Assembly (NCBI GenBank): GCA_009801085.1 | Contig: VNWV01000009.1 | Location: 1,044,501-1,108,500, forward strand | DNA: 64,000 nt | Reading direction: 5' to 3' | Source of the DNA: Lasiodiplodia sp. COLG20 | Taxonomy: Eukaryota > Ascomycota > Dothideomycetes > Botryosphaeriales > Botryosphaeriaceae | Part shown: positions 28,652 to 33,370 of the stretch, one piece after another | Layout of the letters: each line of letters begins with the position of its first letter | Numbering within the stretch: the first letter of the stretch is position 1 | Program-made: the position numbers and the translations under genes | The notes under the pieces: model-generated | What the model saw: the letters and a program-made list of their open reading frames with translations, nothing else | Databases searched by the model: none | Told to the model about the DNA's origin: nothing

Positions 28652-29729
28652 ATGTCTGTCTCCGCCAACGCTCCCAAGGAGTTCACTGCCCGCAAGATCG
28701 GCGCGCCGAACACCCTCGAGCACCGCGTCTACATCGAGAAGGATGGCGTCCCCGTCTCACCCTTCCACGACATCCCTCTGTATGCCAATGAGCAGCAGAC
28801 CATCCTCAACATGATCGTTGAGGTCCCTCGCTGGACCAATGCGAAGATGGAGGTGAGAGCTCCCCGCCATCGACCGCCTGTACCCCGCCGCCAGACTGGC
28901 CACGCTGACCCCCTATCTAGATCTCCAAGGAGGAGACCCTCAACCCCATCAAGCAGGACACCAAGAAGGGCAAGCTCCGCTTTGTCCGCAACTGCTTCCC
29001 CCACAAGGGCTACCTCTGGAACTACGGTGCCTTCCCCCAGGTGAGCCCCGCATCGCCGTCGAGCGACCCCGCCATCGAGCCACAGCACTGACACGCGACG
29101 GCAGACGTGGGAGGACCCCAAAATCATCCACCCCGAGACCAAGGCCAAGGGTGACAACGAACCACTCGACGTCTGCGAGATTGGCGAGCTCGTCGCCAAG
29201 CCTGGTGAGATCAAGCAGGTCAAGGTCCTCGGCGTCATGGCCCTGCTCGACGAGGAGGAGACAGACTGGAAGATCATCGTCATCGACGTCAATGACCCGC
29301 TTGCCCCCAAGCTCAACGACATCGAGGACGTCGAGCGCCACCTGCCCGGTCTCCTGAGGGCCACCAACGAGTGGTTCCGTATCTACAAGATCCCCGACGG
29401 CAAGCCCGAGAACCAGTTCGCTTTCTCCGGCGAGTGCAAGAACAAGAAGTACGCCACCGACATCGTCCGTGAGTGCGCCGAGGCCTGGGAGCGCCTGATT
29501 TCGGGCAAGACCCCCAAGGGCGAGATCTCTCTGTAAGTTTTCCTGCACATGTTCCGCTTGCGTCCATGAGCTGACGAGTCCCCGTAGCACCAACACCACT
29601 CTCGGCTCGTCGCCTGACCGCGTCGACCCCTCGACCATCAACATCCCCTCGGGCGAGAACCAGTACCCCGCTCCCATTGACCCCAGCATTGACAAGTGGT
29701 TCTTCATCTCTGGTGCCCCGACCCAGTAG
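28652..29729 (+). CDS. IPP1: Inorganic pyrophosphatase, 296 aa
   Basis: Four exons: 28652-28852, 28921-29040, 29105-29532 and 29588-29729; introns of 68, 64 and 55 nt. Start MSVSANAP. Hydrolyses PPi to two phosphates with Mg2+, pulling biosynthetic reactions forward in the cytosol. The family I core is intact: [47 protein letters not shown] (from residue 123), [18 protein letters not shown], and ECAEAWERL. The length is close to yeast Ipp1 (287 aa). One oddity: the family signature normally reads D-x-D-P-x-D, but codon GAA makes the middle residue Glu126 here; the first and last Asp (124, 129) remain. The coding strand uses C/G-ending codons strongly, fitting high expression. It ends 229 bp before the convergent mL53 gene. 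Confidence 0.97.
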
Positions 29730-30723: not shown

Positions 30724-32058
30724 ATGACAACTGCGACCTCCGCGCTCACAACGCGCCTCACAGGCCTGTCCGATCAGAACAAGCAAACCGTTCAGCTCAT
30801 CCACCGCCTTGCGAAGCTCCACTTCCAACCCGGCTCTACTCCCCTCGACGGCGAAGAGGGCGACGTGCGCATAGAGCTTAGCTCCGAGATCCACGACAGC
30901 TTAAAACTTCAAGAGGAGGAGCTTGAACTTTTACGACAAGAGGTCGAGGAGCTCACTACTAGCAGTGCGCTGGGTAGCAGGAAGAAAGACAACGAAAAGG
31001 AACGCGAAAAGAGCAGGTTGACCATACAGCTTGCACGGCTGGGCGAAGACCTCAAGCAGTGAGTCCCCCGTCGTGTCTAGCGCATGACCGGAGAAGGTAC
31101 TAACACCCTGCTTTTCAGAGCACGCAGCCAATTCCGAAAGGCCCAATTACAAGCCAAGCGCAACGCCGAAGCTGCCAAGCAGAAGGAACGCGAGCTGCTC
31201 TTTGCCGGCATCCAGGAAGGCAACACCACTCCCACCGCAGGTAGAAGACGAGGCGGTACCGAAAAGCTCACGCAGGACGAGATCATTGCCAACGCGTCGA
31301 GCGACGTGACTTCTGCTCTGAGACGCACCCACCAGTTGATGACCTCTGAGCTGTCCCGCTCACGATTCGCACAAGAGACACTTGATCAGTCGACGGCCGC
31401 GCTTGCAGAGCTTGGCGAGAAATACACAGACCTCAGCACGCTTCTCGCAAATTCAAAGACTCTCGTCAACTCGCTGCTCAGATCGCAGAAGAGCGATACT
31501 TGGTACCTCGAGACAACTCTCTACATTCTCCTCACCACCATCTGCTGGCTCCTTTTCCGGAGACTTCTCTACGGGCCTCTCTGGTGGTTTGCCTGGCTTC
31601 CTCTCAAGTTTGCCTATAAATTCCTCTTTTCAATCCTCGCAACAGTCGGTTTAGCCGGTGGTGCAGCACAAACGCAGGCCCTCTCGTCACAGGCCGCAAC
31701 AGCGTCTTCATCTTCTCTTATCATCCAACCTAGCGCATCCAACAAGGCACACCCCAGAATGCCTGACCAGCCGAAACACAATATCCCTGCCGGCGCCGGC
31801 GGTGCGAACGTCAAGCAGGGCGATGCTCAGCAGCAGGAGGACCCTAGTCAACCCGGGAGCATGTCTCAACAGGTTGGGCAGATGGCGGAGCAGGCTGCGA
31901 GGCAGCAAGATGATGTGCCGAGGAGGGGTGACGGCGAGCCCTTGGTGGAGTCGGACAAGCCACGGAATCCGAAAAAGAGGATGTGGGATGAGGGCGTGGA
32001 AAGGGCGAAGTATGAGGCGCAGCAGCAGGAGGAGCAGAGGCAAAGAGACGAGCTGTAG
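30724..32058 (+). CDS. SEC20: Sec20-type SNARE of the Golgi-ER retrieval pathway, 424 aa
   Basis: Two exons, 30724-31058 and 31119-32058, with a 60-nt intron that contains a perfect TACTAAC branch site. Sec20 is an ER Q-SNARE that receives retrograde COPI vesicles with Ufe1, Use1 and Sec22. An N-terminal coiled coil (residues 55-155, ELELLRQEVEEL) precedes the Sec20 domain at about 162-245 (ASSDVTSALRRTHQLMTSEL, LANSKTLVNSLLRSQKSDTW). Hydrophobic segments follow at about 241-260 (LETTLYILLTTICWLLF) and 261-290. The luminal tail is long, Gln rich and charged, and ends in Arg-Asp-Glu-Leu, an ER-retrieval signal of the HDEL/KDEL type, as yeast Sec20 ends in HDEL. The first ATG in frame was used. 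It diverges from mL53; a tRNA-Trp lies 190 bp downstream on the same strand. Confidence 0.94.
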
Positions 32059-32248
32059 TGATTGTGCAAAGGTATTCGATATCATCTTTTTTCTTGCAAT
32101 TCAGGACATCGTCTACAAAGGGCCCTGGAGGTGACTTTCGTTTGCTTTACATCTGGGTACCGGCCTTCCATGGACATCCAAGAGACCCTGATGGACCTGA
32201 CAGTAGGGTATATGAAGTGGTTAAGCAGTCCATGGACACTAACATAAT

Positions 32249-32389
32249 GGGGGCGTGGCGCAATGGTAGCGGTAAGTTTCTACAATGACTCAAGCCTACA
32301 AAGATATATACTAATGCCCCTCATAGCGTCAGATTCCAGCACACACTGGAGCATCCTGAAGGCTGTGCGTTCAAATCGCACCGTCCTCA
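32249..32389 (+). tRNA. tRNA-Trp (CCA), interrupted twice
   Basis: The mature parts fold as a complete tRNA: acceptor 32249-32255 with 32382-32388 (seven pairs, two G-U); D arm 32258-32261 with 32269-32271 plus 32327; anticodon CCA at 32336-32338; T arm 32365-32369 with 32377-32381; discriminator A at 32389. The A box (TGGCGCAATGG) and a B-box-like GCGTTCAAATCGC are present, and a T6 terminator follows at about 32395. A canonical tRNA intron of about 14 nt lies 3' of the anticodon (about 32340-32353) and pairs CTGG with CCAG. In addition a 55-nt insert, 32272-32326, starts GTAAGT, has TACTAAT 12 nt from its end, and ends TAG. Exact removal gives the standard GCGC D-stem strand, G26 and the anticodon stem. 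One A-C mismatch remains at 31-39. It may be functional or a pseudogene. Confidence 0.8.
32272..32326 (+). other. 55-nt GT-AG intron-like insert in the D arm of tRNA-Trp
   Basis: The insert begins GTAAGTTTC, carries TATACTAATG near its 3' end and finishes CTCATAG. These are the 5' splice site, branch site and 3' splice site seen in the protein-gene introns of this window, and 55 nt is their typical length. It sits between A and B boxes of a polymerase III gene, at tRNA position 24/25. A TAGCG occurs at both junctions. I found no bulge-helix-bulge at the junctions that would let the tRNA splicing endonuclease remove it. Confidence 0.72.
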
Positions 32390-33370
32390 TCTTCTTTTTT
32401 GTTTCTTTTTGGTTCGGTGGGGAGTAAGATGCGGCTGTTTTACTTTTTGGTCTGTGTTGCGTGAGTGTGCGGCCGGGCACGGTTGTCTGCTTTGTCCGAG
32501 AGGCCACGGACCACCATTGGCTTTTTTGTTTTATTCTCTTTGGCTGAGCAGGGCGAAAGCCGAGCTGGAATAGCAGAGCACGTATGAGTTACCGGAGGAT
32601 GCTTACATGCATGCAGAAACGGAAGGAGGATAGACTTGTGCATATGCAAGTCATACTTCGGACCGCCTTGCAGCTCAGGCCGACACCCTGACAGAGGACA
32701 CGCAATTGCGTAACCGGGCGCCGCGCCACTTATGTCTTACATTGCTCAGATGTACCGTGGCACATTCTCGAGAGTCTGGTTTCCTAAAGAAGAAATTCTC
32801 CACGTCAGCCTTCAGGCCAACGAAGCACGGTTTGGCATACAGTCCACATGTACTGTTCTCAGGGTTCTGCAGTTGCGCCAATATTTTGCGCTAATTTGCT
32901 TGGTTCCTTAATATTTTGAAGAGCCGCACATAGTATTGACCCAGAATAGAAGGCTTAGCCCCACCTCTGAGTGCACAGTCTCTGCTAGTCGTGAGCCCCT
33001 TAGACGGGCAATCTATAATATTTTCAACATCCACTCATCTAAAACATGATACTACTTTGGGCCTGAACAGTCTGTATTACTTGAGAGATAGGCTGCGTAG
33101 AGTAAGCGAGACACGGAAAGGTAAAGCCAGCAAAGATGCGTTGAGTATATACTTAGTGGGTATTCCTTTTTTAAGGCTCTACTTTCACGCTCCTCGAATT
33201 CGTTAGACAGCAATTGCAGTTGCAAGGAGTTTATGGATAGGAGCTGGGCCTGGTAGAATTCAACTTGTAAAATTTTCTAAGTACTTCTACATTTTCCCCT
33301 CTGATCTAAGTCTTTTCTATCTCTTCATCCTACGCGCAGGTGACTATCTCTCCTACTAATATAGTCCTGA
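32390..33370. other. Intergenic, 1.0 kb
   Basis: Contains the tRNA terminator and 3' flank of the sugar transporter. AT richer than average, with short frames only. No gene or clear repeat. Confidence 0.4.

Follow-up and report, generated by a model that had tools for sequence, protein, structure and literature searches.

Among the closest described systems is the U6 RNA of Schizosaccharomyces pombe, a polymerase III RNA with an mRNA-type intron that is spliced, as set out in the available part of the source (PMC10484740). Lichen ascomycete rDNA provides another, since it holds spliceosomal introns, one of them 57 bp long, in polymerase I rRNA, and the sections of the paper at hand report that these are removed also in yeast rDNA (PMC8527467). 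For tRNA, the consulted part of a review places nuclear introns after position 37, where the tRNA endonuclease removes them, with algae and nucleomorphs excepted, and describes nuclear D-arm insertions outside these groups as rare, supposed pseudogenes (PMC4090602). The tRNAscan-SE 2.0 paper, in the portion available, limits eukaryotic tRNA genes to one intron (PMC8450103). The literature searched, which left out most subscription papers, contained no description of spliceosomal introns within nuclear tRNA genes. Here we describe a tRNA-Trp gene of Lasiodiplodia sp. COLG20 with a 55-nt insert in its D arm. Judged from sequence, it is very probable that the insert is a true spliceosomal intron of U2 type, that its host gene functions and that the genome has at least five further tRNA genes of this kind.

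The gene lies on the forward strand of the window, by which we mean the whole 64,000-nucleotide stretch analysed, part of a 1.48 Mb contig (C88) in a 43.5 Mb genome of 88 contigs. It occupies 32249..32389, is identified as tRNA-Trp(CCA) by Rfam RF00005 and by paralogues on contigs C23 and C37, and contains two introns of unlike kinds. Exon 1 (32249..32271) supplies the 5' strand of the acceptor, T8, G9 and the D arm up to position 24, and includes an intact A box (32256-32266). A 55-nt GT-AG intron then separates positions 24 and 25 (32272..32326). As the preliminary description had reported, this insert begins with the 5' splice site GTAAGT (32272-32277), carries a branch-like TACTAAT 12 nt before its end (32308-32314) and finishes in TAG; its last four bases are ATAG. 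Exon 2 (32327..32339) comprises C25, G26, the 5' strand of the anticodon stem and the loop through G37, with the anticodon CCA. It is followed by an ordinary anticodon-loop intron of about 14 nt (32340..32353, borders placed by eye to within 1-2 nt). The CTGGA of this intron can base-pair with the anticodon-loop sequence TCCAG. Exon 3 (32354..32389) consists of the 3' strand of the anticodon stem, the variable loop, the T arm, the 3' strand of the acceptor and A73, and contains the B box (about 32368-32378). Both internal boxes and the downstream T run that had been noted for this gene are thus present, the run being a T6 at 32395..32400 that is probably a polymerase III terminator. A TATA-like TATATG lies at -40 (32209..32214).

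The Rfam tRNA model spans the entire interval 32249-32389 (model positions 1-71) with a large insert, at 28.8 bits (E 0.0019), just below the cut-off of 29 bits. In a search of window positions 31500-33300 at E values up to 1, the tRNA family was the only Rfam family to match. ARAGORN called only a tRNA-Lys in the window and not this tRNA-Trp. Upstream on the same strand, an open reading frame with a Sec20 domain (31084..32058; Pfam accession PF03908, E 2.8e-16) has its stop at 32058, which bears out the earlier placement of the Sec20 gene end 190 bp before the tRNA gene. The window also encodes a TAF7-like protein with 98% identity over 84% of the query to TAF7 of Lasiodiplodia hormozganensis; its next match is from Diplodia corticola (84% over 82%), which fits a Lasiodiplodia-like fungus of the Botryosphaeriaceae.

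We identified six tRNA genes with GT-AG inserts in the 5' half: two Trp, one Arg(CCG), two Arg(TCT) and one Ala(TGC). The two Trp genes are interrupted at the same site, 24/25, by 55 nt in the window gene (GTAAGT, CTRAY 12 nt from the end, TAG) and by 57 nt in the gene on C23 (GTAAGT, ATACTAAT, CTRAY 12 nt from the end, ATAG). Arg(CCG), on C67, has a 55-nt insert at 26/27 (GTAAGT, CTRAY 11 nt from the end, TAG). Arg(TCT)-1, on C34, is split at 11/12 by 52 nt (GTATGT, CTRAY 11 nt from the end, TAG), an intron that contains a T4 run, and Arg(TCT)-2, on C1, at 13/14 by 55 nt (GTAAGT, CTRAY 11 nt from the end, TAG). Ala(TGC), also on C1, is split at 9/10 by 52 nt (GTAAGT, CTRAY 10 nt from the end, CAG). 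All six inserts, at five sites, therefore have the same signals: each is 52-57 nt long, starts with GTAWGT, ends with YAG and carries CTRAY 10-12 nt before its end. Their ends are of U2 type throughout, with GTAAGT as the 5' splice site of all but one insert, which has GTATGT. This agreement is to be read with the manner of discovery in mind: the window gene was chosen for its GT-AG insert, the C23 Trp gene was recovered through its resemblance to the window gene, a pattern requiring GTAWGT yielded Arg(CCG) and Ala(TGC) was noticed via a pattern requiring CTAAY and TAG, and the two Arg(TCT) genes, found without a splice signal in the search, are the only two free of such bias. The first exons are very short, at 9-25 nt plus leader; this and the T4 run of Arg(TCT)-1 speak against spliced introns. 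An anticodon-loop intron is also present in every split gene except Arg(TCT)-1 (two seen by ARAGORN, three by eye). In five eukaryotic tRNA genes, introns of two unrelated types thus occur together.

If the inserts are introns, their removal should leave a tRNA. We scored deletions of 30-89 nt on acceptor, D and anticodon pairing and on conserved bases; the score is blind to splice signals, and we entered the 3' strands of the anticodon and acceptor stems manually. In all six genes the GT-AG deletion was best or tied-best among 2,105-2,655 deletions each. For the window gene it ranked top of 2,547, its sole tie being a one-base shift that gives the identical product, while one tie each in Arg(TCT)-2 and Ala(TGC) yields a second product. 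The preliminary description had claimed that excision restores the D stem, G26 and the anticodon stem of the window gene. The D stem (GCGC/GCGC) and G26 are indeed restored; the anticodon stem is restored, by eye, except for an A31.C39 mismatch, which by the same inspection is common to all three tRNA-Trp genes of the genome. Both excised Arg(TCT) genes have fully paired stems. Excised Ala(TGC) has a T6.T67 mismatch in the acceptor and retains G3.U70 and A73, which we take to be identity marks of tRNA-Ala.

Before excision, ARAGORN gave no tRNA for two of the six genes, a tRNA-Gly for three and Arg(TCT)-1 with a mispaired acceptor. Afterwards it called the C23 gene Trp(CCA), both Arg(TCT) genes Arg(TCT) and the Ala gene Ala(TGC); the window gene was still read as Ala(agc) and Arg(CCG) was left undecided, miscalls that we put down to unusual anticodon arms. 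Split genes of this kind escape ordinary tRNA finders, which miss or misfold them, and may be overlooked in other fungi.

Several features point to the inserts being spliceosomal in type. Five of the six genes resemble those with canonical tRNA introns (37/38, cut by TSEN) in that they also have an anticodon-loop intron, whereas the inserts themselves differ from canonical introns in position (9/10 to 26/27), in their GT-AG ends, in the branch motif and in forming no helix across the junctions. They instead resemble nearby protein-gene introns, as had been proposed. The IPP1 gene for inorganic pyrophosphatase (window 28652-29729; Pfam accession PF00719 with exons joined) has three clean introns of 68, 64 and 55 nt of the form GTRAG...CTGAC...YAG, of like length and with CTGAC at a like distance, 11-12 nt, from the end. 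A reading-frame scan of the window predicted six introns (two of them in IPP1, one doubtful) with a median of 60.5 nt and the branch motif 8-15 nt from the end, compared with 10-12 nt in the tRNA inserts. Group I and group II introns were set aside given that the inserts measure only 52-57 nt. The recurrence of these signals in six genes at five sites, where no bulge-helix-bulge (BHB) was found, strongly supports the earlier proposal that a polymerase III gene has acquired an intron of spliceosomal type. In the parts of the sources available, the S. pombe U6 intron is alike in being a GT-AG spliceosomal intron in a small polymerase III RNA, but it lies near catalytic bases (PMC10484740), whereas the hosts here are tRNAs, with six genes and five sites; the lichen introns are alike in interrupting a structured RNA that is not made by polymerase II, but sit in a large polymerase I RNA in which tRNA processing is not involved (PMC8527467). 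The U6 match in the Lasiodiplodia genome itself is contiguous over 100 nt, without an intron.

Beyond the signals, the six introns have no sequence in common: all 15 of 15 pairs score z < 2 against shuffles. They are therefore not recent copies of one element, and introner-like copies were rejected on the same comparison. A similarity search of the genome with the window insert alone likewise found no near-copies besides the Trp genes. Introner-like elements of Dothideomycetes reportedly involve multiple intron gains in this same fungal class; the tRNA introns differ in sharing nothing but their signals.

The three tRNA-Trp genes offer a comparison of filled and empty sites. A similarity search of the genome found three such genes, and the anticodon-arm sequence occurs exactly in the same number of places; allowing one mismatch gave 54 further places (reversed control 21 in all), and the 27 of these 54 that were checked all lack a B-box-like stretch within 67 nt. 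Among the places covered, one intact gene stands against two split ones, and not the several intact copies that the preliminary description had associated with a pseudogene. The intact gene (C37:60129-60224) is a natural empty site, in which GGTAGCG-CGTCAG runs uninterrupted across the junction. Its contig, the one bearing the sole tRNA-Trp found without a D-arm intron, is small (95 kb). All three genes have an anticodon-loop intron in which CTGGA or TTGGA can, by eye, pair with the anticodon loop. The common site and 3' end of the two Trp introns probably reflect a single gain that two of the three gene copies retain and the third lacks.

Between the window and C23 genes, the intron interiors are identical at 19 of 36 positions, no better than shuffles (25% of which score as high), whereas 23 of the 25 splice-signal bases (first 6 and last 19) agree; at the interior's identity this has P 3e-5, for a division drawn along the signals. 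The mature tRNAs are identical at 69 of 72 positions. Of the three differences, two belong together as a compensatory pair in the acceptor (C6-G67 in one gene, T6-A67 in the other), the sides of which lie in different exons. The C23 and C37 genes differ by a further compensatory pair, this one in the T stem. Read at the level of sequence, this comparison shows selection acting on exons and splice signals, and does so between the two split Trp copies only. Exon conservation and the compensatory pair would in turn mean that the split genes are transcribed and that their RNA loses the insert. The split Trp genes need not be essential, given that one intron-free tRNA-Trp exists.

These comparisons bear directly on the suggestion, raised earlier for the window gene, that it may be dead. 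On that account the split genes would be pseudogenes with chance GT-AG inserts, and working tRNAs would come from other copies, such as the intron-free tRNA-Trp on C37 or, for Arg(TCT), a tRNA-like family of nine places (described below) that might, besides the split genes, serve as a source for AGA. The available part of the review likewise takes nuclear D-arm insertions for probable pseudogenes (PMC4090602). Yet near-identical mature parts and a compensatory 6:67 pair, retained despite saturated intron interiors, make pseudogenes unlikely for Trp, and the excised Arg(TCT) genes both fold with fully paired stems. Chance is also a poor source of the motifs. Across both window strands, 6 of 1,280,000 intervals of 50-59 nt carry the signal set, and at least some of these six are real introns, since the window insert and IPP1 intron 3 are among them. 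Multiplied by three boundary choices, the window rate amounts to 1.4e-5 for a single gene; for the two Arg(TCT) genes together the chance is about 2e-10. All six split-gene inserts pass this one filter, but a joint figure of 1e-29 for the whole set neglects the manner of discovery and is discounted. We consequently hold a pseudogene origin to be very improbable; the split genes look like functional, selected genes with real introns. We give an equally slim chance to the idea that the tRNA splicing endonuclease cuts out the inserts at ectopic positions, in the way described for Cyanidioschyzon and nucleomorphs. Introns in the D arm do occur in these eukaryotic algae, and nucleomorph, Cyanidioschyzon and archaeal introns, as far as the consulted text describes them, are alike in D-arm position and in occurring several to a tRNA gene; the Guillardia introns, however, measure 3-24 nt, in contrast to 52-57 nt with spliceosomal signals here, and the Cyanidioschyzon and archaeal introns are BHB-based (PMC4090602). 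No BHB was found at the junctions of the split genes, where predicted folds give a linking pair probability of at most 0.05 in all six, and an endonuclease would leave the GT-AG ends and branch-like motif of all six unexplained.

A different polymerase is the more serious alternative, although still an unlikely one. The split genes would then owe their transcripts, either all of them or the productive ones, to polymerase II, which in the case of the window gene would run on from Sec20; splicing would follow the ordinary pre-mRNA route, and the tRNA would subsequently be cut out. Polymerase II transcripts are the usual home of spliceosomal introns, the end of Sec20 lies close upstream on the same strand, so that read-through reaching the window tRNA is possible, and the introns at 9/10, 11/12 and 13/14 interrupt the A box of Ala(TGC) and both Arg(TCT) genes, the A box being intact in Arg(CCG) and the two Trp genes. 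All six genes, however, are followed within 30 nt by a T5-T7 run, which makes polymerase III the simpler reading, and all six have a B box. The three genes with a split A box each have a TATATA 45-64 nt upstream (3/3), which polymerase III could use, though the contrast with other genes, where 10 of 22 show a TATA-like element no more than 80 nt away, is not significant (Fisher P 0.22).

For U2-type introns in working tRNA genes, the reading that we prefer, we infer which polymerase and which splicing machinery act, and in what sequence, as follows. Polymerase III would transcribe a split gene from its internal boxes to the T run, perhaps helped by a TATA-like element further upstream if the A box is interrupted. 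U1 and U2 would recognise the near-consensus GUAAGU and UACUAAU. Evidence against this is that, in predicted folds, the 5' splice site of the window precursor is mostly paired (mean unpaired probability 0.28), within a range of 0.28-0.67 across the six precursors. The spliceosome most likely removes the inserts from the polymerase III precursor, as it does the fission-yeast U6 intron. Only with the insert gone would the D arm and tRNA core fold, after which RNase P, tRNase Z and, for the anticodon-loop intron, the tRNA splicing endonuclease would act. Five precursors would need two splicing systems because they also contain an anticodon-loop intron. We are evenly divided on the broader proposition that the spliceosome is an obligatory tRNA-maturation enzyme in this lineage, its introns having settled repeatedly in tRNA 5' halves, at several independent positions and even in the A box. 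On that proposition, some tRNAs would have to meet both the spliceosome and the tRNA splicing endonuclease in order to mature, and decoding capacity would depend in part on mRNA splicing. If the splicing is real, the substrates of the spliceosome would include probable polymerase III pre-tRNAs whose first exons have the short lengths given above. Invasion of any transcribed gene by spliceosomal introns would also become a directly testable question.

The split genes came to light in several searches. A pattern joining an A box to a 5' splice site matched 40 places in the genome against 19 in a reversed control, both known Trp genes included; among 20 places examined of the 38 beyond known genes, Rfam recognised a tRNA in one, Arg(CCG). 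The Arg(TCT) gene on C34 emerged from reading the Rfam matches of the genome, in a search that scored 63 of 1,009 candidates and is biased toward unsplit genes. At least 60 tRNA matches resulted, of which 12 lie on C47, a contig that looks mitochondrial; split Arg(TCT) is one of the other 48, and the remaining matches outside C47 were checked mainly with ARAGORN. A B-box pattern alone gave 257 places, no excess over 297 in the control, and adding a T5 run gave 115 against 16. By eye, 18 of the first 30 of the 257 places, all on C1, are tRNA or tRNA-like, and two of these 18 are split, namely Arg(TCT)-2 and Ala(TGC). An Arg(TCT) arm pattern matched both genes exactly and seven further places with one mismatch (reversed control 15); the only two exact Arg(TCT) arms by this pattern are thus both in split genes. 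AGA codons number 2, 0, 8, 1 and 1 in five coding stretches of the window. The split Trp junction gave no match in viral_contigs and genome_contigs, collections not meant for fungi.

The searches also revealed a tRNA-like family with a common T arm and 3' end in at least nine places (C1:1120981, C1:4303849, C1:5388677, C12:1738907, C12:4553554, C23:2508865, C45:3180886, C56:728757 and C56:1603243). Two fully read copies (loci L073 and L090) also share the upstream sequence GATATAATAATAAATCGTC. ARAGORN assigns Arg(TCT) to one copy and Ile(TAT) to another, with base 26 missing in each and a 46-nt anticodon-loop intron in both; with base 26 kept, the anticodon is CTA or ATA, with C37. Five tRNA-Gly(GCC) genes (L132-L136, on C52, C56, C67, C2 and C3) are assigned 65-nt anticodon-loop introns by ARAGORN, and locus L117/L066 reads by eye as Thr(TGT).
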